Assembly: GCA_021805985.1 (NCBI GenBank)
Contig: JAJZDN010000021.1
Span: 1-62,556, forward strand
Reading direction: 5' to 3'
Origin: Planctomycetota bacterium
GTDB taxonomy: Bacteria > Planctomycetota > Phycisphaerae > WQYP01
Length of the DNA stretch: 62,556 nucleotides
Position 1 is the first letter of the stretch; every line of letters starts with the position of its first letter. The notes beneath the pieces are model-generated. The model ran no database searches. It worked only from the letters and a program-made list of their open reading frames with translations, and had not been told where the DNA came from. Shown piece after piece: positions 1,553 to 26,288 of the stretch. Made by a program: the position numbers and the translations under genes.

Positions 1553-1942
1553 AGTCCCGCTCAAAATACCCCTGCAAAGATCACCAGCCAATTCGCCATG
1601 ACCCCGTTCAGGGCGCACCAAAACAACCGGGCCAAATCATAGAGCGCCCAAGGGATACTGGGAAGTCAACATGGGAAAAATAAGGAAATATCGCGGCGCG
1701 AAATGCCTTCCAGACGCTTGCCAAGACTTCGCGGAGGTAAAGACAGCGGATTACGCGGATAGTCACCGGTATCCATCATTCGGGACATCGATACGCGCAA
1801 ATGGCATCGCTATTTGGTGACTGTCACGGCAATCAGACTGCTTTCGGTCCGCCCCCAACACCGCAGGGACCCCAAACCGAATCCCTCTCGTATTCGCGTA
1901 ATCGGAGGTTCAAATTGTGCTGTGACCGTATGGTAGCAACTC

Positions 1943-1990
1943 TTGACTTGCTATTTTCCTGGTATATACTATTTTCCGACGCCGGAAAAT
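1943..1990 (+). promoter_or_regulatory. Promoter and inverted-repeat operator of the AbiE-like operon
   Basis: TTGACT (1943-1948) and TATACT (1965-1970), 16 bases apart, form a good sigma-70 promoter. The expected start point falls inside a perfect inverted repeat, ATTTTCCG-ACGC-CGGAAAAT (1971-1990). A third half-site, ATTTTCC (1953-1959), lies between the -35 and -10 boxes as a direct repeat. This fits autorepression by the AbiEi antitoxin, known for the family. The rest of the spacer back to lptD (1553-1942) holds nothing I can recognise. Confidence 0.7.
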
Positions 1991-1996
1991 GACAAT

Positions 1997-3058
1997 ATGA
2001 GTAAAATAGCAGATATCAACCTTGCCATAATGATCCGAACTGGCCGCTTGACCGTCCCGCCGTTGGAAATCCGTACACCCGCATCTCCACCTAATAAGCG
2101 AGGAGATGTCCTTATCGACGTGATTTGGCGTGGGCGGTCCCACCGATTCGTGGCCGAGGTTCGGCGGGACGCCAAACCGCAGACGCTCAAAATGGCGATC
2201 GATCGCATCCGACATTCCGCCACCATGAAGAGGCAGGCTCGACCGATGATCATTGCGCCTTATTTCAGCCAGGAGAAGCTCGACCAATTGCTTGCCGCCG
2301 GGATCAGCGCCATTGACTTCAGCGGCAACGCCGCCGTCGAGGCTCCCGGCGGGTTCCTCTTTTACAAGACCGGGAACCCAAATAAGTACCCCGACAGCTC
2401 CCCCATTCGCTCGGCCTATCGGGGCAATGGGTCCCTTGTGGCTCGCGTGCTGCTGATGCAGCGCCAGTTCCAAGCGGTAGGCGACATTCTCGCAAGCATC
2501 CGGGCCGGTGGCGGCACATTAACAATGGGAATGGTCTCTAAGGTTCTCCATCGCCTTGAAGCGGACTTGGCCATCGAACGCCCTAACCGCAATGCCGTGC
2601 GGGTTATCCAGCCCGAACGACTGCTCGAAGGATTGTTGAATGCCTACCAACCTCCAAAGACGCAAGACCTTTGGTTAGGAAAAGTCGCGGTTCCCGCGAC
2701 AGAGTTACTGGCCCGACTCGCGGGACTTGCCCCCGAAGGTGCTCTCGTGCGCACCGGCGAAGCCTCGACTGTCGAATACGCGGCGTGGGCCGGTGAACCG
2801 ATCACCTCATGCTATTGCCGCACGAGTCCGACAGTGCTGTTGGAGCAATTGGGAGCGCCAGCGACCGAGACTCGGGCATTTGCCAACCTTCGACTGATTC
2901 AAACCCAGGATCAACTGGTCTACTTTGACACGCGGCCGAACCTGACTGCATCGCCGATTCAGGCGTGGCTTGAGATGGCCAGCGGCGACAAACGGCAGAA
3001 AGAAGTTGCCGAACAGATTCGCGGTTCCATCGGGATAGCAACGGGGACACCCACGTGA
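1997..3058 (+). CDS. AbiEi-like antitoxin / transcriptional regulator
   Basis: A 353-residue protein read as the antitoxin partner of a type IV (AbiE) toxin-antitoxin pair. The call rests on position: it lies directly upstream of, and overlaps by four bases (GTGA), a nucleotidyltransferase with AbiEii motifs. The N-terminal half has a nuclease-like alpha/beta look; residues near 170-215 ('LLMQRQFQAVGDILAS', 'MGMVSKVLHRLEADL') read as a winged helix, fitting DNA binding. The ATG at 1997 is chosen over the in-frame codon at 1943 because 1943 lies in the -35 box; GGAA sits nine bases before the ATG. Classical AbiEi is nearer 200 residues, so this belongs to a longer variant. The operator overlapping the start point suggests autoregulation. 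Confidence 0.6.
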   Translation: MSKIADINLAIMIRTGRLTVPPLEIRTPASPPNKRGDVLIDVIWRGRSHRFVAEVRRDAKPQTLKMAIDRIRHSATMKRQARPMIIAPYFSQEKLDQLLAAGISAIDFSGNAAVEAPGGFLFYKTGNPNKYPDSSPIRSAYRGNGSLVARVLLMQRQFQAVGDILASIRAGGGTLTMGMVSKVLHRLEADLAIERPNRNAVRVIQPERLLEGLLNAYQPPKTQDLWLGKVAVPATELLARLAGLAPEGALVRTGEASTVEYAAWAGEPITSCYCRTSPTVLLEQLGAPATETRAFANLRLIQTQDQLVYFDTRPNLTASPIQAWLEMASGDKRQKEVAEQIRGSIGIATGTPT

Positions 3059-3921
3059 GCGATGAAATTCTGCGTACCAGCCTCTTGGATCTTTTATATG
3101 CTTTGGGAACAACGGCGGAAGGCATCCTTCTGGCCGGAGGCTACGGTCTATACCTCAAACAGTTGTATCTCTCCGACCTGCATATCCACACACTGATCAA
3201 TGCAGAAGTGTGGCCGGAGCCACGTGCGACACAAGATATTGACTTAATGCTGTCGGCGGAACTGGTCGCAAGTGCGCAATCCATGGCTGCGCTGCGGGCG
3301 GCACTTGATAAAATGGGCTACACGGTTGTTAAAGGCTCGGAATTTCTGCAGTTCGTCCGCACCATTTCCGGGACGGCCGTGGTCAAGGTCGATCTGCTGA
3401 CCGCACAGTTCAATATTCTCGAAAGCAATCGCGCTATTCGTGCCGATGACCGCCGGGCCAGACCCGCATCTGCGGACCACCCTGATCTCCACGCGCATCC
3501 CACCGATGGCGCCTTGGCTCTCACTGATGACCCCCTGATTATTGATGTCGCTGGAACGCGCTCGGATGGCCGGGCATGCAGTGTAAAGGTCACGATTCCT
3601 CACCCCTTCAACTACCTGTTGATGAAACTCACCGCTTACCGCGATCGGCGCAACGACTCTGACAAGAATCTGGGCCGGCACCACGCTTTGGATGTGTTCC
3701 GGATTGTCGCAATGCTGACTGAATCGGAATGGGATCAGATGCTGGCAAGCCAGCGGAGATTCACAACCGACAGCCAAGTGCTTTCCTGCCGGAAATTGGT
3801 CCAATCAGATTTTTCAGGCAAAACCACCCTCGGTGTACTGGCAATGCGTGCGCACCCGCTCTGGCGGAACGACCCGCAATTACCGGTGTTCCTCGAAGCG
3901 CTTCATGAAGTCAAGACGTGA
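3055..3921 (+). CDS. AbiEii/AbiGii-type nucleotidyltransferase toxin
   Basis: A 288-residue protein with the two hallmarks of DNA polymerase beta-like nucleotidyltransferases of the AbiEii family: a glycine motif LLAGGYG (residues 25-31) and an acidic pair D61-I-D63 in 'RATQDIDLML'. A later segment, 'LMKLTAYRDRRNDSDKNLGRHHALD', supplies the Lys and Asp positions typical of the family's C-terminal half. Known AbiEii toxins act as GTP-binding nucleotidyltransferases and cause growth arrest that can abort phage infection. The GTG start overlaps the stop of the preceding gene, so the pair is probably translationally coupled. No frameshift or truncation is visible, so it looks intact. The substrate cannot be told from sequence. 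Confidence 0.68.
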   Translation: MSDEILRTSLLDLLYALGTTAEGILLAGGYGLYLKQLYLSDLHIHTLINAEVWPEPRATQDIDLMLSAELVASAQSMAALRAALDKMGYTVVKGSEFLQFVRTISGTAVVKVDLLTAQFNILESNRAIRADDRRARPASADHPDLHAHPTDGALALTDDPLIIDVAGTRSDGRACSVKVTIPHPFNYLLMKLTAYRDRRNDSDKNLGRHHALDVFRIVAMLTESEWDQMLASQRRFTTDSQVLSCRKLVQSDFSGKTTLGVLAMRAHPLWRNDPQLPVFLEALHEVKT

Positions 3922-4113
3922 TGCCGCCGCCATCGGCCCAAGACGTCCGGAAGTTTGGCCCCGCGCGCGGTCGGATTCTCTCCACTGGATTAACGAGATA
4001 GTCGGGAGGGCAGAGCAGTGCCCTGAACCCCTCATTTTAAACGGAGCCTTGCCGCGAGCCTGTGCGGCTCAAATATCAATTATGCGCAATAAAATAAAAG
4101 GGTTTTATGCGAA

Positions 4114-4185
4114 CTCCGCGGGTAGGATTCGAACCTACAACCGATCGGTTAACAGCCGATTGCTCTACCATTGAGCTACCGCGGA
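4114..4185 (-). tRNA. tRNA-Asn (GTT)
   Basis: The reverse strand folds as a 72-base tRNA. The acceptor arm TCCGCGG pairs with CCGCGGA, the anticodon loop CTGTTAA gives anticodon GTT, and the T arm has the standard GGTTCGAATCC. CCA is not encoded. It lies 22 bases before tRNA-Phe's 3' end on the same strand, so the two may be co-transcribed. Confidence 0.96.
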
Positions 4186-4207
4186 AAATGGCTTCCGCCA
4201 GATTTTA

Positions 4208-4280
4208 TGGGCAGAGCCGGAATTGAACCGGCGACACAAGGATTTTCAGTCCTTTGCTCTACCAACTGAGCTATCTGCCC
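4208..4280 (-). tRNA. tRNA-Phe (GAA)
   Basis: A 73-base tRNA on the reverse strand. The acceptor arm GGGCAGA pairs with TCTGCCC, the discriminator base is A, the anticodon loop is CTGAAAA (GAA), and the T arm reads GGTTCAATTCC. CCA is not encoded. Confidence 0.96.
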
Positions 4281-4395
4281 GCCGAGCCAAACAATTTACG
4301 ATACCATGCCAGAAACTGCAAGTCTACGCCACATTTTTGCCACCCCGCAGTTGTCGGCCGGCCCCACTTATCCTATTATTACTCTTCCACGCTCC

Positions 4396-4469
4396 GGCCG
4401 GATGCCCGAGTGGACTAAGGGAGCGGATTGCAAATCCGCGATTCGTGGGTTCGAATCCCACTCCGGCCT
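4396..4469 (+). tRNA. tRNA-Cys (GCA)
   Basis: A 74-base tRNA. The acceptor arm GGCCGGA pairs with TCCGGCC, the discriminator base is T as expected for tRNA-Cys, the anticodon loop TTGCAAA gives GCA, and the T arm reads GGGTTCGAATCCC. It is divergent from the Asn and Phe tRNAs and just upstream of polA. Confidence 0.95.
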
Positions 4470-4534
4470 TTGTCTGAATCGCTTTGACCTGTGCATTTAT
4501 CCCCAATCTCGGCGACATGGGCTAAAATAGATCT

Positions 4535-7417
4535 ATGACGACGCCACAGACACTTTACGTTATTGATGGCCATGCGCAGATTTATCGGGCGTATTATGCC
4601 CTTCCGCCCCTGAATGCGCCCTCCGGCGAACCGACCAACGCCACGTTTGGTTTTGTTTCCGCGCTCTTGAAACTGCTGCAGGCTCAACGACCATCCCGGC
4701 TGGTTCTGGCGATGGATGCCGGTTCCAGCGGTCGTGAACTTCTGGACAGCCAATACAAAGCCCATCGCAAACCGATGCCCGATGACATGCGCCCGCAGAT
4801 TCAACGCATTATCAGCATCGCGCAAGTCATGGCTCTGCCAACCTTGCGCATTGCCGGGTTTGAAGCAGATGATGTGATCGCCACGCTGGTACAACGCATC
4901 GTTGCCCAAGTTGATCCACCGGATATTTTCATCTGCTCGCGGGATAAAGATCTCGACCAGCTAGTGGGAGATAAGGTCCGGCTTTATGACATTCAAACCG
5001 GTGAAGCAATTGATGCCGCCGCACTTATAAAAAGCAAAGGCTATTCGCCGCAGCAGGCCGGCGATGTGCTGGCATTAACCGGAGATACGGCAGATAACAT
5101 TTCCGGCATTCCGGGCGTTGGCCCGAAAACTGCGGCCAAATGGATTTCCCAGTTTGGAAATCTGGATAATCTCATCGCTCACGCCGCTGAAATACCGGGA
5201 AAAATAGGTCAGGCCTTACGCGATAATTTGCCAATCCTGGCGCAATCACGGCAATTGGTGCAGTTACGCTATGACGTTCCGCTGGAATTGCCCGATGCGG
5301 ATTTTGATCCCGCTTCTTTGGCAAAGCTGGAACCTGTATTTCATGAGTTGCAGTTCCAGCGTCTGCTGCCGGTATTAAGACAAACCCAACAAATGTTGGG
5401 AATGCCTCCACCGCCCATCCTGGTGGCCCCGAACCCTACCGCTGCCGCGGGTGACATTGTGGCCAATAAACCCTCTGGCTCTCCTGCGCCAAGAGGTCTT
5501 TTTGATTTGCCGGAGTTGGCTTCGGCCGCAGTGTTTTCGGAAGTTCGCAACCCCGCTGCCGCGTTTGCTCTATCGGTACCCGTGGCTGCACCCGTGGAAC
5601 TTGGCCGTGTGCAGGGTAATTATCGCTTGGTCAATAGCCCGGCAGCATTAGACGCGATGATTCAGGAAATTCACGCGCTATTGGAGGGCAATGCCAATCG
5701 TTGGCTGGCGGTGGATACCGAAACCGATTCCCTTTCCGCACTGGAATCGCGACTGTGCGGGATATCACTGGCCGCCAAGGAGGCTTTGGCGTGGTATATT
5801 CCAGTTATGGGGCCGGGATGTGAACTTTCTTTGGCGGATATTTCCGCCCGTCTGGCTCCCCTTCTGGCGGATAAAAATATCCGAAAAATCGGGCAGAATT
5901 TGAAGTATGACATGCACGTTCTGCATCGGCACAACATGCCGCTTGGGGGGATTTATTTTGATACGATGGTCGCCGGTTATCTGGTGGATTCTGCAAAGCA
6001 GAGCCTGTCCATGGATTCTCTGGCGGCGGAGTATCTTAGACTTCAGCCAATTCCCATTACCGACCTTATCGGCTCGGGCCGTAAGCAGGGGAGTTTTGCG
6101 GATGTGCCGCTGGATCGGGCCACACAGTATGCCGCCGAAGACGCAGATGTCACCTATCGTCTTGCAGTTGTGCTGTTTCCGTTGATCCAGGCCATGGGCA
6201 TGGACAACCTGATGTTTGAACTGGAAATGCCCCTGGTGGAAATTCTGGCGGAAATGGAACGCACCGGCATCAAAGTTAATAGCCGGCACTTGGAAGAACT
6301 GGGCCTTCGCCTGGGGAAGAAAATTGATTCTCTTCGCCTGGAGATTATGCAAGCGGCAGAGACGGATTTTAATCCTGATTCCCCCAAACAACTCGCCCAG
6401 GTGCTTTTTGAAAAGCTTCAACTGCCCCGTGGCAAAAAGACCCAAACTGGCTACAGTACGGATGTGGCGGTCCTGGAATCTTTAGCGGATCAACACCCGG
6501 TGCCGGCGCTGGTGCTGGAATATCGACAGCTTGGAAAATTGAAAAATACCTATGTCGATTCATTAATTCAAGAAGCCGCCCGAACCGGGCGGGTTCATGC
6601 CCAGTTTAATCAGACGGTTGCGGAAACCGGCCGGCTTTCCAGCAGTAATCCGAATTTACAGAACATTCCTATCCGAACCGATGAAGGCCGCGAAATTCGC
6701 AAGGCGTTCATCGCGGACGGCCCGGACAAAGTGCTTCTGGCCGCTGATTATTCACAGATTGAATTACGCATTATGGCCCATTATTGCCGCGAGCCGGCGT
6801 TGACCGACGCCTTTGCCCGCAATCAGGATATTCACCAGTTTGTCGCCACGGAGATTTATCACGTTCCTGCGGATCAGGTCACCAGCGATATGCGACGCGT
6901 AGCGAAGACCGTTAACTTTGGCATTATCTACGGCCAAACTTCTTTTGGTCTCAAGCAAGTGCTGAAAATTTCGCAAAGTCAGGCCGAAGCATTTATCGCC
7001 GCGTACAAACAGCGCTTCCCCGGCATTACCGGATTTTCCCATGATTGCATTGCACAAGCTTTGCAGCATGGCTTTGTCACCACGATATTGGGACGTCGGC
7101 GACCCATACCGGAAATATATTCAGAGCGGCAATCCACGCGCAACTTTGGACAGCGCGCCGCCGTCAATACTGTTATTCAAGGCTCCGCGGCTGATCTAAT
7201 TAAGCAGGCGATGGTACGCATTGCCAAGCGCATCGCCGGCGATTCACGCATCAACATGCTTTTGCAGGTGCATGATGAACTGGTATTTGAGTGTTCCCGC
7301 ACGGCCGTAGAGGAATTTTCCGCGTTGGTTCGCCAGGAAATGGAACAAGCTATTATCCTCACGGTCCCGCTAAAAGTAGATGTTCACTGGGCAGAGAATT
7401 GGCTGGACGCGAAATAG
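4535..7417 (+). CDS. polA: DNA polymerase I
   Basis: A 960-residue enzyme with the three-part PolA layout. Residues 1-290 are the 5'-3' exonuclease ('VIDGHAQIYRAYYAL', 'DADDVIATL'-like 'FEADDVIATL', 'GDTADNISGIPGVGPKTA'). Residues about 380-550 are the 3'-5' exonuclease with the catalytic pair intact in 'VDTETDS' (D394, E396), so proofreading is probably active. The polymerase domain follows, with 'NLQNIPIRT', motif A 'AADYSQIELR' (about 737) and motif C 'QVHDELVFE' (about 907). It fills gaps in DNA repair and removes primers from Okazaki fragments. A Pro/Ala-rich linker (about residues 295-350) joins the exonuclease domains. No strong ribosome binding site precedes the ATG. Confidence 0.96.
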   Translation: MTTPQTLYVIDGHAQIYRAYYALPPLNAPSGEPTNATFGFVSALLKLLQAQRPSRLVLAMDAGSSGRELLDSQYKAHRKPMPDDMRPQIQRIISIAQVMALPTLRIAGFEADDVIATLVQRIVAQVDPPDIFICSRDKDLDQLVGDKVRLYDIQTGEAIDAAALIKSKGYSPQQAGDVLALTGDTADNISGIPGVGPKTAAKWISQFGNLDNLIAHAAEIPGKIGQALRDNLPILAQSRQLVQLRYDVPLELPDADFDPASLAKLEPVFHELQFQRLLPVLRQTQQMLGMPPPPILVAPNPTAAAGDIVANKPSGSPAPRGLFDLPELASAAVFSEVRNPAAAFALSVPVAAPVELGRVQGNYRLVNSPAALDAMIQEIHALLEGNANRWLAVDTETDSLSALESRLCGISLAAKEALAWYIPVMGPGCELSLADISARLAPLLADKNIRKIGQNLKYDMHVLHRHNMPLGGIYFDTMVAGYLVDSAKQSLSMDSLAAEYLRLQPIPITDLIGSGRKQGSFADVPLDRATQYAAEDADVTYRLAVVLFPLIQAMGMDNLMFELEMPLVEILAEMERTGIKVNSRHLEELGLRLGKKIDSLRLEIMQAAETDFNPDSPKQLAQVLFEKLQLPRGKKTQTGYSTDVAVLESLADQHPVPALVLEYRQLGKLKNTYVDSLIQEAARTGRVHAQFNQTVAETGRLSSSNPNLQNIPIRTDEGREIRKAFIADGPDKVLLAADYSQIELRIMAHYCREPALTDAFARNQDIHQFVATEIYHVPADQVTSDMRRVAKTVNFGIIYGQTSFGLKQVLKISQSQAEAFIAAYKQRFPGITGFSHDCIAQALQHGFVTTILGRRRPIPEIYSERQSTRNFGQRAAVNTVIQGSAADLIKQAMVRIAKRIAGDSRINMLLQVHDELVFECSRTAVEEFSALVRQEMEQAIILTVPLKVDVHWAENWLDAK

Positions 7418-16733: not shown

Positions 16734-17840
16734 ATGAAACCAGCTGCCGCAACTTTTCCAGATGTGCGTCCCATCGTGGACTCCCTGATCGCCCGGGCCT
16801 TGGATCGCCGTGCTTCAGATATTTATATTGAACCTGTCGCGGACGGATTTCAGATTCGCTTCCGTATTGACGGCCTGCTTGAAACCATTGAATCGCTACC
16901 CAGTGAAACCGGTGAATCTATTGTCAACCGTGTCATGGTCATGGGCCGACTTTTAACCTATCGCCGGGACATTCCGCAGGAAGGGCGGATGCGTATCGAT
17001 ACTCCACGCCCCGTAGATGTGCGATTATCCGTTATACCCACCCTGCACGGCCTGCGTGCCGTGGTGCGTATGCCGGCTGAATTATTTGCCCCGCATCAAC
17101 TCTCGGATTTATTTCTGCCCCGCCATACGCTGGATTTTCTCATGGAATTCTGCCGGTCAGATTGCGGCATGTTAGCGGTCATCGGCCCGGCCGGGGCTGG
17201 AAAAACCACGACAATTTATGCCCTGCTGGATCATCTGGCCCGCACGCAGCCGGGCATCAGTATTGTTTCGCTGGAAGACCCGGTTGAGCGCGGTATTCCC
17301 GGCGTAACACAAATTGAAGTCAGTCCCTTTGGTGAGTTGGATTACCAACGCGCCTTGCGCAGCATGTTGCGGCAGGACCCGCAGGTCTTGTCCATCGGTG
17401 AAATCCGGGATAACGCCACCGCTTCCCTGGCGGTGCAGGCGGCCCTGACTGGACACCGCCTGGTGTGCACGATGCATGCAGGATCAGCGGCCGGGGCGAT
17501 AAGCCGCCTGCTGGAAATGGGCATTCAGCGGTATCAAATTACCAGCAGTCTCTTTGGCATATTGAATCAGCGGCTGGTACGGAGAAAAACCGCTTCTGGC
17601 TATTGCGGCCGTCTGCCCATAGCCCAGTGTGTCCGCATGGATCAGGTGTTAAGCGCGGCGCTGCTGGACCAAAGCGATGCTGCCGGCTTGGACGCGGCGA
17701 TGCGGAAATCCCCGGCTTATCAGAGCCTGCATGACGCAGCACGGGATTTAATCAGCCGAGACACTACGGATCAAGCGGAAGTAGACCGGGTGCTGGGGCC
17801 GCTGGTGGAAAATGCCGCGCCGGCGGCAGCGATTCTCTAA
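16734..17840 (+). CDS. GspE/PilB-type secretion ATPase, short form
   Basis: A 368-residue ATPase of the type II secretion/type IV pilus assembly family, which powers pseudopilus extension from the cytoplasm. The N2 domain begins at once with 'RRASDIYIEPVADGFQIRFRIDG'; Walker A is 'GPAGAGKTT' (about 154), the Asp box lies in 'VSLEDPVE', Walker B is 'VLSIGEIRD' (about 218-226) and the His box is 'HRLVCTMHAGSA'. Normal GspE is about 500-570 residues. This one lacks the N1 domain that docks on GspL, and the tetracysteine zinc loop that usually sits between 'QRLVR' and 'GYxGR' is absent ('QRLVRRKTASGYCGR'). It is the first gene of an operon with GspF-like proteins and pseudopilins. Confidence 0.85.
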   Translation: MKPAAATFPDVRPIVDSLIARALDRRASDIYIEPVADGFQIRFRIDGLLETIESLPSETGESIVNRVMVMGRLLTYRRDIPQEGRMRIDTPRPVDVRLSVIPTLHGLRAVVRMPAELFAPHQLSDLFLPRHTLDFLMEFCRSDCGMLAVIGPAGAGKTTTIYALLDHLARTQPGISIVSLEDPVERGIPGVTQIEVSPFGELDYQRALRSMLRQDPQVLSIGEIRDNATASLAVQAALTGHRLVCTMHAGSAAGAISRLLEMGIQRYQITSSLFGILNQRLVRRKTASGYCGRLPIAQCVRMDQVLSAALLDQSDAAGLDAAMRKSPAYQSLHDAARDLISRDTTDQAEVDRVLGPLVENAAPAAAIL

Positions 17841-17916
17841 TCATGTGTCGCGCAAGAGATCAAACTTTCTTCGGCGAAAATTCCCGGCATGCCGTGGCGG
17901 AAGTAAGGAGTGAACC

Positions 17917-19155
17917 ATGGATAGCAGTTTCGGTTATCGAGCTACGTTGGATTCCGGACGCGAACTTTCCGGCACGCTTAATGCACCGGATCAGGCGGCT
18001 GCGCTGTCGGTGTTAACCTCCTTGCAGTTAAAAGTGCTGGATCTCTGGCCCGCCGGTGCGCCGGCCCGCACGCGACCCTTAGCCGCGGAGGATTTCAAGA
18101 GTTTTAATCAGCAGTTGGCACTATTGATAAAGTCCGGCCTGCCGCTGGAAACCGGATTACAATTATTGGCGGCTGACGCACCGCGCGGTCGGCGTCCCAA
18201 TGCGCTTGCGAATATCAGTGCGGATTTACAGGCGGGCCTTACGCTGCCGCAGGCGGTGGAAAAACACCGTGGCGAATTTCCACCGGATTACGCGCTGCTG
18301 CTGGACGCGGGCATTCGCACCAGTAATTTGTCGCAGGTGCTGGTAAATTTGGGAAACCATCTGGACTTGCGGCAAAAGCTCAGGGAGAGTATTTTCCGCG
18401 CGGTGGCGTACCCGATATGTGTGATCGCTGCGATGCTGGCGGTCCTGATGTTTATGGGATTAAAAGTATTTCCCTATTATCAGAGCTTTATACAACAGTG
18501 GATGACAACTAGCCGGGAGCACCTCTTCTACGGCAGCCGCACACCCCACACGCCACTGATTACCAGAGCGGTCCTGTATTGCGGCGTGCATGCTCCGGCC
18601 TTTGTTGCTCTGATTGTGACGGTTGTGGTGTTGGTTTTGGGATTCTGGCTGATTTTCCGTAAACGCCCGGTGATGTTGCACGTGCAGGACTGGGTGGCTT
18701 TGCATATTCCAGTGCTGGGGCCAACACTGCGGGCGGGGTTTGTGGCCCGCTGGTGTGATGCATTGCGCATCGGCGTGGTTAGCGGCCTGGATTTGCCGCA
18801 GGCGATCGAACTGGCCAATTCTGTGACAGGTTCCCCCGCACTAAGCGCCGACGGTATGCAGATGAATCAGACGATGTCGCGCGGCCTGCCGCTGAATCAA
18901 GCTTCGCCGGGACGGATGTTGCCGGCCTCGGTCGCTGCGACAGTTCAAAGTGGCATCGCCGGAAATAATCTGTCCGAGACATTGACGGTGCTCTCGGAAG
19001 GCTATACGCGGGAAGCCCAAGCGCGCATCAGCATCGCACCGGCGATCGTCACGCCGGTAGCGTTGTTGTTCATTGGCGTCATGGTCTTTACGCTGATATA
19101 TGCTATGGCATTGCCGTTTCTGCAGCTTCTGGCAGGGGTGGGCCGCGCCGGATGA
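17917..19155 (+). CDS. GspF/PilC-type inner-membrane protein
   Basis: A 412-residue protein of the GspF family, the membrane platform that couples the ATPase to pseudopilin assembly. It begins with the typical GspF/PilC N-terminal strand ('YRATLDSGRELSGTL', 'AALSVLTSLQLKVLDL') and 'FNQQLALLIKSGLPLETGL', the first helical repeat. Three hydrophobic segments are visible near residues 165-185, 225-250 and 375-400, the usual pattern. The second repeat is 'ARWCDALRIGVVSGLDLPQAI'. GGAG upstream supports the ATG. Of the three GspF-like genes in the operon this is the most canonical. Confidence 0.85.
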   Translation: MDSSFGYRATLDSGRELSGTLNAPDQAAALSVLTSLQLKVLDLWPAGAPARTRPLAAEDFKSFNQQLALLIKSGLPLETGLQLLAADAPRGRRPNALANISADLQAGLTLPQAVEKHRGEFPPDYALLLDAGIRTSNLSQVLVNLGNHLDLRQKLRESIFRAVAYPICVIAAMLAVLMFMGLKVFPYYQSFIQQWMTTSREHLFYGSRTPHTPLITRAVLYCGVHAPAFVALIVTVVVLVLGFWLIFRKRPVMLHVQDWVALHIPVLGPTLRAGFVARWCDALRIGVVSGLDLPQAIELANSVTGSPALSADGMQMNQTMSRGLPLNQASPGRMLPASVAATVQSGIAGNNLSETLTVLSEGYTREAQARISIAPAIVTPVALLFIGVMVFTLIYAMALPFLQLLAGVGRAG

Positions 19156-19197
19156 CAGGATTGGGAATCGGTTTCGTTGGGGTTGGTTCGATAATTC

Positions 19198-20451
19198 ATG
19201 CTTAAAAATTTGCAAATATGGCTGGCACGCAAGCGCATTGTACGATGGCAGCACCGGCGCGGGGTGCTGGCATTTCTGGGAACCTGGCTGCCGGTGTGGT
19301 GCGGGCTGGCAGTAATGTTTTGCATTTTCACGCGGATATTCGGTGAAATGCTCCTGCTAATGCTTCCGGTTTGGGTGCTTGGCCGGTATTTTATTGCGCG
19401 CCGGCGCTGTGATATTGTTATTCAGAATATTTACGGCATTATTCGACTGAATCACCTGTTGCCTGAAAATTTGATCCTGGCCGCTAAGTGCAAGCGCGGA
19501 AAAGTCGCCGTGCGACTCCAGACAATCGCCGAGCTGCTGCAACAGGGCCTGCCCCTGGCGGAAGCGCTGCGCCTCGGGGTACCGGAGTTAACAGCCGCCG
19601 ACCGTGCGACCATAGCCGAGGCCGAAATGTCCGGACGCCTGCTCCCTGAGCTTGAGAGATTAAGCGCCCGACGTACCGGATGGTCCGCTACCAGCGAGTT
19701 GGACGCCAACTATGGACTCTATATTCTTGCGACGCTGTGCATTCTCCTGTTCGCAATCGCAAAAATCTTCACTTTCGTGGAGCCTAAATACCGGTATATG
19801 CTCAAAGCGTACGGAATCCCTTTTGCAAATCACTGGTTTACCCGGGTGGTTATCGCCGAGCCGAGGCCGGTGTGGCGGCAGCTGCTGGACATCGCGATTG
19901 CTATCGTCATTGTGGTGGTGGCCACGGCGCTTCGCCGCCTTGTCATGCCATTTTTCCGCCGAGGGAACGTATCAATCTATATTCGTGACAGGGTCGCCTG
20001 GTGGCTGCCGATTGCGGGACCCCTGATTCGTTGGCGAGCTTGGTCAGATAGTACGCGGATTCTCGCGCAGGGCATGGCGGCAGGCCAACCCTTGCCGGAG
20101 GTTTCCCAATCTGCCGCGATGGCTGTTAGCAGCCGTGTTGCACGGCGGCGACTCCGGCAATGGAGCGAAAAAATATTGGCCGGAATGCCAGCGGATGCCG
20201 CAGCAAGAAAATCCGGCCTGCCGGGAATAGTATGCCACGCCTTGGCCCAACCGCTGGGTTCCACAGGTTCGGCATTGGGACTGGCGGCGGGCTATTACGC
20301 CCTCAAATATCGCCGCAGAGTGGAAATCATTCGTGCTGTAAGTATTCCGCTGGCGGTGTTGTGCATGGGATCGCTGGTTCTGATGTTGTGTTTGGCGCTG
20401 TATGTGCCCTACATTGAGTTGCTGCAGGTTGTCAGCAGGGGAGGCGGGTGA
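19198..20451 (+). CDS. Divergent GspF-like membrane protein, copy A
   Basis: A 417-residue protein with a GspF-like plan but weak motifs: 'LLQQGLPLAEALRLGVPEL' and 'DSTRILAQGMAAGQPLPEV' replace the two helical repeats, with hydrophobic segments near residues 25-65, 175-195, 225-245 and 380-405. The last segment ends 'CLALYVPYIELLQVV', like GspF C-termini. It is a paralogue of the gene at 20600; the first 35 codons and the last third are nearly the same while the middle differs. The stop overlaps the next start (TGATG), so translation is likely coupled. The role as a platform subunit is inferred from family and operon. Confidence 0.65.
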   Translation: MLKNLQIWLARKRIVRWQHRRGVLAFLGTWLPVWCGLAVMFCIFTRIFGEMLLLMLPVWVLGRYFIARRRCDIVIQNIYGIIRLNHLLPENLILAAKCKRGKVAVRLQTIAELLQQGLPLAEALRLGVPELTAADRATIAEAEMSGRLLPELERLSARRTGWSATSELDANYGLYILATLCILLFAIAKIFTFVEPKYRYMLKAYGIPFANHWFTRVVIAEPRPVWRQLLDIAIAIVIVVVATALRRLVMPFFRRGNVSIYIRDRVAWWLPIAGPLIRWRAWSDSTRILAQGMAAGQPLPEVSQSAAMAVSSRVARRRLRQWSEKILAGMPADAAARKSGLPGIVCHALAQPLGSTGSALGLAAGYYALKYRRRVEIIRAVSIPLAVLCMGSLVLMLCLALYVPYIELLQVVSRGGG

Positions 20452-20600
20452 TGGTTCGGCGACGCGGCTTTTTCTTATTCGATTTGACCGTGGCGATGGC
20501 AGTGCTCCCTGCGGCGGCGTTTGCTCAGAATGTTGAAGACGCCAGGCGGCCCAGGATAATTGGAGTCGCAATCAGCGTTGGCGACCGGTGGGCGAAGTGA
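20451..20600 (+). CDS. 49-residue pseudopilin remnant
   Basis: A short frame with TGATG overlaps at both ends, so it is knitted into the operon. Its first 20 residues, 'RRRGFFLFDLTVAMAVL', match the prepilin-like N-terminus of the gene at 21862 ('RSRGFFMFDLTLAIVLL'), including the Gly before the cleavage point and Asp at position +5. After that the similarity ends and the sequence is unlike a pilin body. The simplest reading is a duplicated pseudopilin gene that lost most of its length while the frame and coupling were kept. Whether the peptide is made is unknown. Confidence 0.55.
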   Translation: MVRRRGFFLFDLTVAMAVLPAAAFAQNVEDARRPRIIGVAISVGDRWAK

Positions 20601-21865
20601 TGCTTAAAGATTTGCAAATATGGCTGGCACGCAAGCGCATTGTACGATGGCAGCGGAAACGCGGAGTACTGGCATTTCTAGGCACCTGGCTGCCGGTGTG
20701 GTGCCTGATCGCCAGTGTTGTCCTTCCTCCGATTACGCCCATCCTGTTCGCAGTCATTTTTTCTCTACCAGTGATGGTAATGGCTCGGTATTTCATCGCC
20801 CGACGGCGCGCCCAAGTTGTGCTGCAGAAAATCTACGACGCGATGCGATTCAATCATCCACTATATGAGAACTTGTTGCGGGCTAGCCAGAGTGAACCAG
20901 GCATCCTGGGTGTGCGGCTGCAAACGCTCGCCGAGGAATTACTCCTCGGAAGGACGCTGGCGGGGTCGGTGCGGCTGGCGGTGCCGGAGGTGGCCGCCGC
21001 AGACTTGGCATCGCTTGAAGAAGCCGAGAAATCTGGATTTTTATTGACCGAACTGCATCTCCTTTGCAAGCCCCGGCGGAGTTGGCCAAGCTCTTCGGAG
21101 CTCGATATGAACTTCCTGGCTTATTTTATCTGCCTTCTGATCACGTTCGCTCTGGCCCTGATGGTGTTCCGTTCGATGATCGCGCCCCACCTTTATTGGG
21201 GCCTGGGCCCCGGCGTTTTTCCTTTCGCGCGGCCGCTTATGAAAGTCACGTCTTTTCTGAGTTACCACCGGGTCAAACACATCGCCATTGGCCTCCTCGC
21301 CAGCCTGCCCTTCGCGATCATCATCATTACGGCCATCCTGCTTCGCCGCCTTGCGATTCCCTTTTTCAGGCGCGGAAATGTCTCGATTTATATCCGCGAT
21401 GCCGTGGCGTGGCGTCTGCCGATAATGGGTTCCCTGATTCGCTGCCGCTCTTGGTCAGACGGTTCGCGGATACTGGCTCAAGGCATCGCCGCGGGCCAGC
21501 CCTTGCCGGAGGTTTCGCAATCCGCGGTAGAAGCTGTTGGTAGCCGCGTGGCACAGCGGCGCCTGCGGTTGTGGCGAGAAATGGTGCTCGCGGGAACCTC
21601 GGCGGACCGGGCGGCCCGGAAATGCGGACTGCCGGGACTGTTGTGTGGCGCTCTGGCCCAACCGTTGGGTTCAACAGGTTCGGCACTGGCACTGGTGGCG
21701 GGATATTACGATCTCAAATATCGCCGCAAGCTGGAACTGATCCGAGCTGTGAGCATTCCGATTGCCATATTGTGTATGGGAACCTTGGTGCTGCTGCTAT
21801 GTTTGGCATTGTATGTGCCATACGTTCGTATTTTGCAGTTGGTCAGTGGAGGCGCTGGATCATGA
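20600..21865 (+). CDS. Divergent GspF-like membrane protein, copy B
   Basis: A 421-residue paralogue of the protein at 19198. The first 35 codons ('MLKDLQIWLARKRIVRWQRK') are almost the same at the DNA level, the centre is diverged, and the last third ('RRGNVSIYIRDAVAWRLPIM', 'LAQPLGSTGSALALVAGYY') is again close. Hydrophobic segments lie near 25-65, 170-190, 230-255 and 385-410. The start at 20600 overlaps the stop of the 49-residue frame; the codon at 20588 is an alternative. The end overlaps the next pseudopilin by ATGA. Its role is inferred: a third platform-like subunit is unusual for one assembly system. Confidence 0.65.
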   Translation: MLKDLQIWLARKRIVRWQRKRGVLAFLGTWLPVWCLIASVVLPPITPILFAVIFSLPVMVMARYFIARRRAQVVLQKIYDAMRFNHPLYENLLRASQSEPGILGVRLQTLAEELLLGRTLAGSVRLAVPEVAAADLASLEEAEKSGFLLTELHLLCKPRRSWPSSSELDMNFLAYFICLLITFALALMVFRSMIAPHLYWGLGPGVFPFARPLMKVTSFLSYHRVKHIAIGLLASLPFAIIIITAILLRRLAIPFFRRGNVSIYIRDAVAWRLPIMGSLIRCRSWSDGSRILAQGIAAGQPLPEVSQSAVEAVGSRVAQRRLRLWREMVLAGTSADRAARKCGLPGLLCGALAQPLGSTGSALALVAGYYDLKYRRKLELIRAVSIPIAILCMGTLVLLLCLALYVPYVRILQLVSGGAGS

Positions 21866-22236
21866 ATCGAAGTCGCGGCTTTTTTATGTTCGATCTGACG
21901 CTTGCTATTGTGCTGCTTTTGACACTGGCGTCGGTGTTCGTCCACGTGGTGTGGTTGTATAACCGGGACTGCGTGCGTCTGGCGGCTATTCGTAATGCGG
22001 CCCGCAATGAGCAGACAATACTGTATCGTGCCACGATGCGGCCGCGGGAAGCCGCTGCCAAACAATGGATTGCCGGGCCGGGGCTTATCAGGCCGGCCAA
22101 AATGCCAAGCCGGGGCAGTCAGGCATTGCCCGGAGGCAGCCATTGGGTTGCCATTCATGCTGGCCATTCCGCCGGGCAGACACTGTATGCGTTGGCTCAA
22201 GCACCGCGGACAAAACGTATCGGAGGAAAAAAGTGA
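21862..22236 (+). CDS. Minor pseudopilin-like protein
   Basis: A 124-residue protein with a type III (prepilin-like) signal: 'RSRG' then 'FFMFDLTLAIVLLLTLASVF', giving cleavage after Gly. Position +5 is Asp where Glu is usual; the acidic residue probably still serves. The rest is soluble and short, like GspH/GspI minor pseudopilins, with no motif I can assign. The ATG overlaps the previous stop and its own stop overlaps the next GTG. It is the full-length counterpart of the 49-residue remnant upstream. Confidence 0.65.
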   Translation: MNRSRGFFMFDLTLAIVLLLTLASVFVHVVWLYNRDCVRLAAIRNAARNEQTILYRATMRPREAAAKQWIAGPGLIRPAKMPSRGSQALPGGSHWVAIHAGHSAGQTLYALAQAPRTKRIGGKK

Positions 22237-22736
22237 AACGAAAAATGCGTGCCGAAAGTTGCCGTTGTAAAGGCGGATTTACCCTCATGGAGTGCGTGGT
22301 CATGTTGCCCGTCATGGCTGTTTTTTTAATGATGGCCGGGCAGTTTTTTGTCGCATGCCTCCGGACATTTAACCGAGCTGATCTGCGAGCTGTACACATG
22401 TCGCAGCAGGGACAGCTCCTGCGGGAATTGCGACAGGATATAGCCACCGCGGAGCATCTGCAGTTGCAGGGATCCCATGGTCTGATCTGCGGGTTTGGAA
22501 AAAAGCGGAAGATTCTCTGGCTGGTGAATTCCAACGGCACCGTGGCACGGATTTGGCAGAATGGGAAAATTTCTCCGCCCCCGCAGTATTGGCCCGCACT
22601 CTGGCCCGACCTGCACTTTGCACAATTTAGCCCCGGCTACGTCTCTATCTCCTGGGTGAGAGGAAAACAACGCGTCACCCAAACATTCGTATCCCTTGCG
22701 GCGGAAATTCATGCCGGAAAGCATGGTGCGCTATGA
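22233..22736 (+). CDS. Minor pseudopilin (GspJ-like)
   Basis: A 167-residue protein with a clear prepilin signal 'CKGGFTLMECVVMLPVMAVF': cleavage after Gly, Phe at +1 and Glu at +5. The body, 'ADLRAVHMSQQGQLLRELRQ' and 'LVNSNGTVARIW', resembles GspJ-type minor pseudopilins in length and layout. The GTG start is chosen because GGAGG lies seven bases before it and it overlaps the previous stop (GTGA); the ATG at 22245 is a second option. It would sit at the tip of the pseudopilus. Confidence 0.72.
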   Translation: MKRKMRAESCRCKGGFTLMECVVMLPVMAVFLMMAGQFFVACLRTFNRADLRAVHMSQQGQLLRELRQDIATAEHLQLQGSHGLICGFGKKRKILWLVNSNGTVARIWQNGKISPPPQYWPALWPDLHFAQFSPGYVSISWVRGKQRVTQTFVSLAAEIHAGKHGAL

Positions 22737-23212
22737 ACCCTGATTTTCTACCCCATCCACGTAACACCACCCATAGCCCACGCCCGCGCGGTTTTGCGAT
22801 CATTACCGTGGTGGCGATGATGGCTCTGGCAGTGGCGTGCTTTGTAGTGGTGGGCGAGGTGTTTTCCTATCAGTTAAAACTCACAAATCACACCATCGCC
22901 CGGCTCCAAATGGAGCTTCTGCTGAATGCCGGAGAAACCTGTGCCATAGATGAACTGGCCGACGGGAAAGGTCTGTCAGATTCGTGGAAGGTGTCGCTGC
23001 CGGAGGCACTGATAAAAAAAGGTGCTCGGCTAATGCTTGCCGAGCGCCGACAGGGCGAAAACATTATATTCTTTACTGTGAAGGCGACTATTACGAATTT
23101 GCACAGTAGTCGCGTGCTGGAATTCCAACAGGATGCCAAGCATTGGCGGCTTACCCGTGTGGCCATTCCCGGATCGGCCTTCGGGCCTGCCACTTTCCGG
23201 CGGCCAGCATAG
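22733..23212 (+). CDS. GspK/PilX-like minor pseudopilin
   Basis: A 159-residue protein with an N-terminal Pro/Arg-rich leader, then 'RGFAIITVVAMMALAVACFVV', a pseudopilin-type helix that lacks Glu at +5 (Thr instead), a feature of GspK. It then carries a soluble part with 'LQMELLLNAGETCAIDEL', which recalls GspK/PilX segments. True GspK is about 300 residues, so this is a short form. It overlaps the previous gene by ATGA and ends the pseudopilin run. GspG, the major subunit, is not in this operon. Confidence 0.6.
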   Translation: MNPDFLPHPRNTTHSPRPRGFAIITVVAMMALAVACFVVVGEVFSYQLKLTNHTIARLQMELLLNAGETCAIDELADGKGLSDSWKVSLPEALIKKGARLMLAERRQGENIIFFTVKATITNLHSSRVLEFQQDAKHWRLTRVAIPGSAFGPATFRRPA

Positions 23213-23373: not shown

Positions 23374-25101
23374 ATGGCAGGAGTTGACGTGATTTCTACA
23401 ACACAACGGCCCGTTCTTATGATTTCTCAGGCCAGTACTACGGCCATTGTTGGTGCAGGTCGATGGACCGGCGTAGCGCGGGCCATTGGTTTAGCGGCCG
23501 CGTTTGCAGTAACTGCGGCCTTAACCGGATGCGGCGCTTCGCCATCTCATCAGGCTGACGTGCAGGCCAATGCGGCCTCAGCCAAAGCGTCCGCGCTGTT
23601 AGGGGATGCGGGCCGGTATCACGCCAAGGCTCATTTTCCGGTTTCAATCAGCGCGCCCTTAAGCTCAGGCCAGTTGGCTTCAGCGCAGGATGCCGCTAAA
23701 AGCAATCCGGGCGCTTATCTGGAACCTCCCTCGGTTAGCCGGGATTTACGCCACGCCTATGCAACGCTCTCCAGCGCGTTGGGCAATTCTGATCTGAATT
23801 TCCAGATGAAGGGTTTACTTGAAATGCAGCGCGGCTTGGTCAACTTGGCCTCCGCGCAAGTCCATACAGACCAATTATCCGCAGCCTTAATGGCATTGCA
23901 GGATCAGGTGTTATCGCTGGATTCAGGATCAACCCAGGTGGGGCATTTTGCCGCGAAAATGGCATTTTTGAAAAAGCAGCATGATCTGTATCTGCACTTG
24001 TATGATAAGGACTTGCGCCATGCCCAGCGTATGGAAAAATCTGCGAAGCTTGCGGTAGCGGACGCTCGACAAAAAGCAAAATCTGTTCGCGGGGTCTTAA
24101 CCCACTATCAGGGAATTGCCAAAGGTTTGGATATTCGTGGCATGGCTTTGCAGACCAAGGGCGAAGTGACCGTTACACCCGCTACCCTGGTGGATTTTAA
24201 GCGGGGAGCAGGATATCTGGATCGGGCCGCGGCCGCCAATCAGAAAGCCAATGTGCTACAGGTTCAATATCAACTCGCGACGCTGGTCGTTCATTCCGCA
24301 AAACTGCAACAAACCCGTTGGGCCAATCAGGTGGCGGCGTTGCGGCAGGCACAAAAGTCAGCAGCGGAATTGGCCCAAAGCGATACGGCTCAAGTTACCG
24401 CGCTTAAGGCGGGCGTCACCATTCTCATTGACGGTGCGGATGGCAGTTCTCCAACTTCTGCCGCCGGACGCTCTGCCAGCATTAACGCACTGCTTAAAAC
24501 CATCAATAAGCAGGCTGCGGTCGCTGCGAAATACGCCGACGCGGCCTCCCGTGATCTTATGGACGCCCTGAATGAACAGCGCCGCTCCAGCGCCTACGCC
24601 CAAAGCCTGGTTACCTCTGGATTTAAACCGGGCGACCCGCTGGTGGCCGCCAACCAGAGCCGCGCCCCGCAGTGCGTGCTGGAGGTATATCGTGCCGCCG
24701 CCGCACTGAAAGCAGGACAGATTGCCGCCATGCGAATGTACGCAGCGCAACTTCAGGCCGGTGCCGCCAAGGCTGGCAAACAAATTTTTTCTCTGGTAAG
24801 TGAAAAGTCGCCTCTGCGGGAACCTGCGGCCGGCGTGGTGGGAAATTTCCGCAAGCAGGCGATGGTGGAATTTAATGTCCATGCCGCTGGCGCGTTGAAA
24901 CAAGCACAATCTTCTTATCCCACGCAAGCTTCACCGCTGCCTTGGATAGTCCCGGCGATGATGTATAACGTCGATTTATCCGTTGCGGGTATTTCCAATA
25001 ATCCATCGGTCCGCGCGGCCGCACTCAAAGCCGCCGCCGCCAGTGCAATGACCGCCCAAAAGGTAAATGCATCGTTAAACTTGCCGCTACCGAAGAAGTG
25101 A
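23374..25101 (+). CDS. Large Ala-rich helical lipoprotein of unknown function
   Basis: A 575-residue protein. A hydrophobic stretch ends in the lipobox 'LTGC' (about residues 48-51), so it is probably a lipoprotein; the 25 residues ahead of the hydrophobic run are longer than usual, and an internal start at 23419 would shorten them. The mature part is almost all helix-forming, rich in Ala, Gln and Lys, with likely coiled coil around residues 200-260 and 280-350. It has no Cys after the lipobox and no catalytic motif I know. It follows the secretion/pilus operon after a 160-base gap, so it may belong to it as an envelope component, but that is only context. Confidence 0.6.
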   Translation: MAGVDVISTTQRPVLMISQASTTAIVGAGRWTGVARAIGLAAAFAVTAALTGCGASPSHQADVQANAASAKASALLGDAGRYHAKAHFPVSISAPLSSGQLASAQDAAKSNPGAYLEPPSVSRDLRHAYATLSSALGNSDLNFQMKGLLEMQRGLVNLASAQVHTDQLSAALMALQDQVLSLDSGSTQVGHFAAKMAFLKKQHDLYLHLYDKDLRHAQRMEKSAKLAVADARQKAKSVRGVLTHYQGIAKGLDIRGMALQTKGEVTVTPATLVDFKRGAGYLDRAAAANQKANVLQVQYQLATLVVHSAKLQQTRWANQVAALRQAQKSAAELAQSDTAQVTALKAGVTILIDGADGSSPTSAAGRSASINALLKTINKQAAVAAKYADAASRDLMDALNEQRRSSAYAQSLVTSGFKPGDPLVAANQSRAPQCVLEVYRAAAALKAGQIAAMRMYAAQLQAGAAKAGKQIFSLVSEKSPLREPAAGVVGNFRKQAMVEFNVHAAGALKQAQSSYPTQASPLPWIVPAMMYNVDLSVAGISNNPSVRAAALKAAAASAMTAQKVNASLNLPLPKK

Positions 25102-25301: not shown

Positions 25302-25480
25302 GAGGCAGAGCCTCCCAGTGGGTTCAATACAACATGGATGTTGTGTGGTCTGACAATTTGCGGCTGAAAGTAGCCGCAATATTTGATGGCCGGATGGAGA
25401 TGAAATTAGCTGGCACTTTGCGTTGAAGTGTCAGCGTTTCAGAATTTAGCAAGCCGGTTAAAGTACGTAACCGGATGCTT
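25302..25480 (+). promoter_or_regulatory. Hairpin-rich 5' leader of the VPA-CTERM gene
   Basis: Five consecutive hairpins are visible: GAGGC-AGA-GCCTC (25302-25314); ACAACAT-GG-ATGTTGT (25329-25344); TTGCGGCT-6 bases-AGCCGCAA (25358-25379); GCTGGCACTT-7 bases-AAGTGTCAGC (25409-25435, one G-U); and CCGGTTA-7 bases-TAACCGG (25454-25474), extended outward by AAGC/GCTT with a bulge. A GGGAG follows eight bases before the ATG. I do not recognise a known riboswitch class. Such density in 180 bases points to a structured RNA leader, but function is inference. Confidence 0.5.
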
Positions 25481-25499
25481 ACCCACGGGAGTATGCAAG

Positions 25500-26288
25500 A
25501 TGTTCAAGAATACAATTTTATCGGCAGGTTTGATCGCGGCGGCAGGGGCACTCGCCTCGGCGACGTCGGCCAACGCAAGTATCCAAAAGTTTTCCGGATC
25601 CTCCAGCGGTAACGCTTCCACGGTCGTTTTTACCTTTAACCCCGCGAATAACGACGTCACGGTAAATATACAAAATACCACGTCGTCCGTAAGTAATATC
25701 GGCCAAGCTATTTCGGGAATATCCTTTTCATTAGCCAACCTCGGCAGCGGGTCGCTAAGCGTCGATTCAAGCGCCCCAGTAGGTTATGAAGGAGATAGTT
25801 CAGCCGGTGGCTCGCTGTTATCCAACAGCCAACTGAACAACCCGTGGGAAATTGCCGACAGCAGCGGCACATTCGCCCTGGGAAATCCCAAAATCCTTGG
25901 TAATGTCGGTGGTCTTGGCTTGAGCGCCGGAAGCGACTATCCGAAAAGGGGGCCAACCGACCTCGTAGTTGAAACGATTCCAAATCCAAATGGAAGCATT
26001 GGTGCCCATGACCCATCTTTGTTTGGACAAGGTACCAATGGTGCCGAAGGCGTCACCTTTACGCTGGACGGAACAACCCAGTCATCGATCACCAGCAACA
26101 CAACTGTCACGGGAAATTTGACTGTCTATTTTGGCACCGGACCCGATTCGTCTATTTCCGCGGAGTCCGTTCCCGTAACCGTACCCGCCGGCGGCCCGCT
26201 GCCGGTGCCTGCGACGCTGCCGCTGGTTGCTGGAGGAATTCTGGCCCTGGGGGCGTTGGCCCTTCGGAAGCGCGGAAGATTTCAATGA
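25500..26288 (+). CDS. Exported protein with VPA-type PEP-CTERM sorting signal
   Basis: A 262-residue secreted protein. The signal peptide 'MFKNTILSAGLIAAAGALAS' ends near SANA-S. The middle is rich in Ser, Asn, Gly and Thr, typical of beta-rich surface proteins, with no catalytic motif. The C-terminus has the three-part sorting signal: 'PLPVPATLPL', a hydrophobic helix, and the basic end 'LRKRGRF'. This is the VPA variant of PEP-CTERM, known to be handled by exosortases in bacteria that make exopolysaccharide, which matches the polysaccharide locus in this window. GGGAG before the ATG decides the start. The long structured leader suggests post-transcriptional control. No exosortase gene is present here. 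Confidence 0.82.
   Translation: MFKNTILSAGLIAAAGALASATSANASIQKFSGSSSGNASTVVFTFNPANNDVTVNIQNTTSSVSNIGQAISGISFSLANLGSGSLSVDSSAPVGYEGDSSAGGSLLSNSQLNNPWEIADSSGTFALGNPKILGNVGGLGLSAGSDYPKRGPTDLVVETIPNPNGSIGAHDPSLFGQGTNGAEGVTFTLDGTTQSSITSNTTVTGNLTVYFGTGPDSSISAESVPVTVPAGGPLPVPATLPLVAGGILALGALALRKRGRFQ

Follow-up and report, generated by a model that had tools for sequence, protein, structure and literature searches.

Two full-length GspF-like platform genes, and a third from tandem duplication, in a putative minimal type IV filament operon of Phycisphaerae

Results

Organization of the operon

We analyzed a 62,556-nucleotide (nt) stretch of DNA (the window; assembly GCA_021805985.1, contig JAJZDN010000021.1, positions 1 to 62,556 of the forward strand) from a Planctomycetota bacterium of the class Phycisphaerae, whose draft genome comprises 4.68 Mb in 197 contigs. 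The window contains an operon with the gene order E–F1–F2–p1–F3–p2–p3–x, which encodes a single GspE-like ATPase (E), a canonical GspF platform protein (F1), two divergent GspF paralogues (F2 and F3), and pilin-like proteins (Table 1). The original prediction, made from sequence alone, had described one ATPase, one canonical GspF, and two divergent GspF-like genes each followed by a pilin start, and these genes were found where described, with Pfam confirming the ATPase and the three GspF-like proteins. The 49-residue p1 and its coupling to both neighbours were also found as described.

Table 1. Positions of the operon genes and of features within them (window coordinates; a slash marks the prepilin-type cleavage site; aa, amino acids; ORF, open reading frame).
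Feature	Position	Strand	Description	Support
E	16734..17840	+	GspE/PilB-type extension ATPase, short form without N1 domain, 368 aa	Pfam T2SSE (PF00437) 3.5e-76
F1	17917..19155	+	Canonical two-domain GspF/PilC platform protein	Pfam T2SSF 1.5e-32, two stretches
F2	19198..20451	+	Second platform protein of the class-wide E–F1–F2 set	Pfam T2SSF 2.3e-12
p1	20451..20600	+	49-codon junction ORF, overlaps F2 (GTGATG) and F3 (TGATG)	Sequence comparison
p1, pilin-derived part	20451..20498	+	First ~16 codons, prepilin-type start G/FFLFD	34/48 nt identical to p2 start in G000
p1, part from F1 3' end	20499..20559	+		Boundary approximate
p1, part from F1–F2 intergenic spacer	20560..20599	+		Boundary approximate
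F3	20600..21865	+	Third GspF-like protein, tandem duplicate of F2	Pfam T2SSF 1.2e-6; 58% aa identity to F2
Conversion tract in F3	20609..20653	+	F3 codons ~4-18, matches F2 19207-19251	Permutation p = 0.001
p2	21862..22236	+	Full-length pilin-like protein, start G/FFMFD, partner of single-copy F2 in relatives
p3	22233..22736	+	Second pilin-like protein, start G/FTLME, GTG start overlapping p2 stop	Weak ComGF match, 0.023
x	22733..23212	+	GspK-like minor pseudopilin, start G/FAIIT, no Glu5; conserved in relatives	NCBIfam T2SS_GspK 2.5e-6, below cut-off

The components place the operon in the type IV filament superfamily. E belongs to the T2SSE/PilB family, F1, F2, and F3 all score above the Pfam T2SSF cut-off, p2, p3, and x each have a predicted prepilin-type cleavage site with a hydrophobic segment next to it, and the genome encodes one prepilin peptidase (C129), unlinked to the operon. 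The best NCBIfam match of E was TIGR02533 (GspE), under its cut-off, and E was 51-97% identical to its counterparts in operons from the same genus and the same family. The F1 profile matched PilC (3jc8) at 3.2e-34 over 5-406, while the F2/F3 family profile matched PilC at 1.6e-17 over 85-410, across both cytoplasmic domains. Additional hydrophobic segments are present at the N-termini of F2 and F3, in F2 ahead of the first cytoplasmic domain, and a structural model of F3 matched the GspF cytoplasmic domains. Pfam and NCBIfam scans recognised no secretin, GspC, GspL, or GspM among the operon genes; GspC, GspL, and GspM were not searched for genome-wide. The sole secretin found in the genome (C50, 1313 aa, with TPR matches) lies away from the operon. 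The C125 locus of the same genome holds three T2SSE-family genes and a GspF, a set resembling that of type IV pili.

Two full-length platform proteins across the class

The assumption in the original prediction that one GspF per system is normal proved wrong for this group, as class relatives carry full-length F1 and F2 beside the ATPase. In same-genus and same-family relatives, the operon reads E–F1–F2–p2–p3–x with one F2, although some genes are cut off on fragmentary contigs. E, F1, and F2 also occur together in further families of the class (loci L060, L061, L062, L064, and L071-L078); F1–F2 is present with no E match at L070, and L063 has a different arrangement with two F1-like genes. 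At 1e-15, the F2/F3 family profile matched 27 of the 81 class genomes surveyed; at 1e-20, it matched none of 99 phylum genomes (~93 of other classes) except the window's own, each survey covering a sample of the genomes. The pairing of E with two full-length platform proteins is conserved across the sampled class members, and two platform proteins are therefore the baseline here.

Small pilin-like genes follow some of the E–F1–F2 sets that recur over several class families at the loci listed above and at L055-L057. In G018, another family member (locus L048, oriented 1529-6668), the order is E–F1–F2–F1'–F2', an independent expansion of the platform pair.

We compared the putative pore residues of these proteins, with positions taken from alignment to PilC, to those of PulF, whose pore has Tyr-Pro in transmembrane segment (TMS) 1 and Glu-Pro in TMS3. 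All GspF/PilC homologues of type II secretion systems (T2SS) and type IVa pili are described as sharing the TMS3 Glu (PMC10790770). None of the three proteins has both motifs: F1 keeps Tyr-Pro (Y165-P166) and has Thr-Pro (T379-P380) in place of Glu-Pro, and F2 and F3 have the TMS1 Tyr without Pro and Ile-Pro in TMS3, with the Glu lost. The other GspF proteins of the same genome, C125 and C156, keep both motifs. Tyr-Pro was found throughout 25 F1-type sequences, with the TMS3 Glu only in G092 and an Asp in G058; of 20 F2-type sequences, nearly all have the Tyr, few the Pro, and three (G015, G013, and G092) the Glu. In most class relatives, as in F1, F2, and F3, the TMS3 Glu of the PulF pore is thus replaced.

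Family membership and gene order suggest a secretin-less, endopilus-type assembler, in which E would power a mixed F1/F2-type platform that builds a short filament from p2, p3, and x, with F3 as a further F2-type subunit. Alternatively, F1 and F2 (or F3) could each assemble into a homotrimeric platform of its own, one for each of several pilins or steps, such as assembly versus release; a single ATPase would be common to them, and F3 would be an alternative platform. Each protein covers both cytoplasmic domains and so could make its own platform, F1 retains the pore-lining Tyr-Pro whereas F2 and F3 have lost the Pro, and a homotrimer is the form shown for PulF (PMC10790770). However, the strict E–F1–F2 order in relatives suggests joint use, and the operon has a single ATPase; we regard separate homotrimers as possible but less probable than a mixed platform.

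F3 arose later, from F2, within one genus

F3 and p1 co-occur only in the window genome (G000), G005, and G007, all of the same genus, and no F3 orthologue was found outside the genus among the relatives compared and the class genomes surveyed by profile. G002 and G006 have a single F2-type copy. F1 and F2 are ancient and distinct, and F3 is a later copy of F2, in agreement with the predicted tandem duplication of a unit made of a GspF gene and a pilin start.

Windowed alignment of F2 with F3 gave a DNA identity of 89% for a 110-nt stretch at the 5' end and of 71% for a 300-nt stretch near the 3' end, dropping to 35-46% in between, with DNA repeats (D1/D2) spaced ~1.4 kb apart. The two genes had been described as nearly identical at both ends and different in the middle, which holds for the 5' end and the middle but is too strong for the 3' end. 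A run of 22 consecutive variable sites within codons 4-18 is the same in F2 and F3 of G000, as are 16 such sites within codons 368-387 in G007 (permutation p = 0.001 for each); G005 had no significant conversion tract by this test.

A further sign of exchange was found in G003, which is near-identical to G005 at the locus. Here F2 is followed directly by a pilin gene, without p1–F3. In this pilin, the first ~15 nt have the alleles found in G005 p1, and the sequence thereafter is p2 (310/312 nt over the body), while the 120 nt upstream match F2 at 116 positions and F3 at 81. The G003 F2 also has a short tract, codons ~361-381, with many F3 alleles. Unless G003 is mis-assembled, the p1–F3 unit was deleted through a crossover between the two pilin starts. 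Together with the tracts in G000 and G007, this collapse upholds the exchange between copies that had been proposed.

The N and C parts of F2 and F3 are under purifying selection, with ratios of nonsynonymous to synonymous divergence (dN/dS) of 0.11-0.28 in these parts and 0.11-0.35 for F2 and F3 between species where computable. The F2 middle is strongly divergent at synonymous sites between species (synonymous divergence, dS, of 0.95-2.5 versus 0.53-0.77 for F1), a pattern that may reflect the import of diverged sequence. Synonymous divergence of F3 and p2 (window 20600-22236) between species is lower than that of F1, which may reflect exchange between species. The F2 middle of G007 is closer to that of G002 and G006 than to that of G000.

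These data bear on whether F3 could be a redundant copy that persists through chance and gene conversion and has taken on no new function. Copy number does revert, as in G003, and G002 and G006 have one copy. However, F3 is retained in three species at the dN/dS values and the low synonymous divergence given above, and roughly half of the sites in its middle differ from F2, a difference that recurs from species to species. We consider redundancy possible, though slightly less so than separate homotrimers, and favour F3 as an additional F2-type subunit of a mixed platform. A stricter form of that platform, an obligate hetero-oligomer of F1 and F2 in the class and of F1, F2, and F3 in the genus, with the pore glutamate lost from all, appears unlikely.

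p1 is a duplication junction

The pilin-derived start of p1 is identical to that of p2 at 34 of 48 nt in G000 and at 47 of 48 nt in G007. The remaining 101 nt before the F3 start align to the 3'-terminal 60 nt of F1 followed by the F1–F2 spacer. The score of this match, summed over three p1 tails and five F1 tails and right-anchored, was compared with shuffles and offsets: it gave z = 9.8 over dinucleotide shuffles, 0 of 400 shuffles reached it, and the true register ranked first among 334 offsets along F1. This right-anchored test was decisive, while aligning individual p1 tails locally, with no anchor, to every window of the operon gave no decisive result for G000 and G007. No signal was detected between the p1 tail and the p2 pilin body, local scores being equal to shuffles.

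Traces of the F1 C-terminus are still legible in p1. Read in the +1 frame, the G000 p1 tail ends in ...GGPG-stop, matching the F1 C-terminus of G002 (GVGGPG-stop), and the G005 tail ends in VGGPR-stop. In the alignment, the p1 frame is initially in line with F1 (...FAQ versus ...FLQ) and is then shifted by one inserted base, so that p1 bypasses the F1 stop. Because its tail matches the F1 3' end and spacer and the pilin body is unmatched, p1 is a duplication junction and was never a whole pilin; the duplicated unit therefore ran from the F1 3' end through the spacer and F2 to ~16 codons of the next pilin gene.

The decay of one pilin that had been predicted is accordingly not what p1 records. 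A decayed full pilin would account for the prepilin-type start and the couplings, but it does not fit the origin of the tail or the constant length of p1, with no indels, in three species; we consider it highly improbable. Nor is p1 a conserved small protein, a candidate that we rejected: no protein-level constraint was detected, with 11/15/11 variable columns by codon position (no codon-position bias), erratic pairwise dN/dS, and a reading frame whose openness is no surprise under neutrality. p1 would not be a working pilin, and at most may pass ribosomes from F2 to F3 through its overlapping stop and start codons.

On the age of the duplication, the middle-segment tree groups F2 of G002 and G006 with other F2 and sets F3 outside the genus's F2. 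By this segment, duplication after the G002/G006 split is disfavoured (approximately unbiased (AU) test, p = 0.031) and an earlier duplication favoured; the N segment is too short and converted for dating. Synonymous distances between F2 and F3 in the C part (codons 271-360) are 0.97-1.89, near saturation and comparable to those between F1 of these species and F1 of G002 and G006 (1.0-1.26).

The position of F3 in the middle-segment tree could also be taken to mean that the three GspF-like genes are ancient, distinct families with an unrelated short gene between them, the case that the original prediction named as its refutation. Comparison with related genomes did not bear this out: among the genomes surveyed, F3 occurs in one genus only, F2 and F3 share their start and end and more than half of their residues, and p1 is composed of its neighbours' sequence, which leaves ancient families with as little credence as a decayed pilin. 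An artefact of metagenome assembly is the least probable explanation of all: the relatives are all draft genomes, and mis-assembly is conceivable for G003, which differs from G005 by one unit and is nearly identical elsewhere, but the array occurs as diverged, independent copies in three genomes and is not an artefact because its sequences in G005 and G007 are different.

Discussion

Collectively, these findings favour the following model, to which we assign a probability of about 75%. The operon would encode a minimal type IV filament assembler, endopilus- or T2SS-like, with a platform of full-length F1 and F2. Within one genus, tandem duplication of the unit defined by p1 produced F3, a second F2-type protein, and the chimeric 49-codon p1 at the join. 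Later, F2 and F3 exchanged sequence at their ends by gene conversion, their middles diverged or were replaced, and one relative returned to a single copy by crossover between pilin starts. The gene anatomy, its conservation, the source of the junction, the conversion, and the collapse are all seen in the sequences.

Several points weigh against this model or parts of it. The mixed platform and its role in filament assembly are deduced from family membership and gene order, as is the complex itself. The predicted structure of F3 has a predicted local distance difference test score (pLDDT) of 68 and a predicted template modelling score (pTM) of 0.37, and is useful for the cytoplasmic domains alone. 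The open frame of p1 is unremarkable under neutrality (P = 0.49) and, as p1 also lacks protein-level constraint, its coupling role can only be suggested. The three segment trees disagree on the date of the duplication, the C-terminal segment gives the AU test no information, and the length of the stem branch leading to F3 may be misleading.

The platform proteins resemble GspF/PilC proteins (PulF, EpsF, PilC) in that F1, F2, and F3 carry the T2SSF fold, and the F1 and F2 profiles match PilC over both cytoplasmic domains. However, those systems have one platform gene, whereas here there are two or three different full-length genes per operon. Adjacent pairs of GspF-related platform genes are also found in the Tad and Epd pili, although TadB and TadC each contain a single T2SSF domain and are products of gene fission (PMC6668835, PMC10191384). 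F1 and the F2-family proteins each align over both domains, which points to duplication of whole platform genes rather than fission as their origin. The operon shares with T2SS and endopili a weakly GspK-like x and the prepilin-type starts of p2 and p3, but no secretin, GspC, GspL, or GspM was recognised in scans of its genes. Like the ComGA/ComGB competence pilus, it has a short ATPase without an N1 domain, encoded compactly together with the platform and small pilins, but two or three platform proteins where ComG has a single one (PMC10191384).

Of the core parts of type IV filament machines, the platform protein is described as the least well characterised (PMC10191384). In the literature that our search covered, with most subscription papers outside its reach, no two-platform system other than Tad/Epd was described, and the only multi-gene platform was TadB/TadC, from splitting of one gene. 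The class-wide two-platform system is the more interesting part of this work; the duplication within the genus is of more modest evolutionary interest. A class with adjacent full-length platform genes, and with natural two- and three-platform versions in close species, may help to show whether hetero-oligomeric platforms can form and whether the proposed ion-channel glutamate is required. The case of p1 illustrates that the join of a duplication can yield a small ORF resembling a truncated gene.

Two genes lie downstream of the operon in the window. The first (23374-25101) encodes a 575-aa protein with a lipobox-like start and no Pfam match above cut-off, and also adjoins the operon in G003 and G007. 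The second (25428-26288) encodes a 286-aa protein with a hydrophobic C-terminus, a tail that we take to resemble a PEP-CTERM sorting tail.

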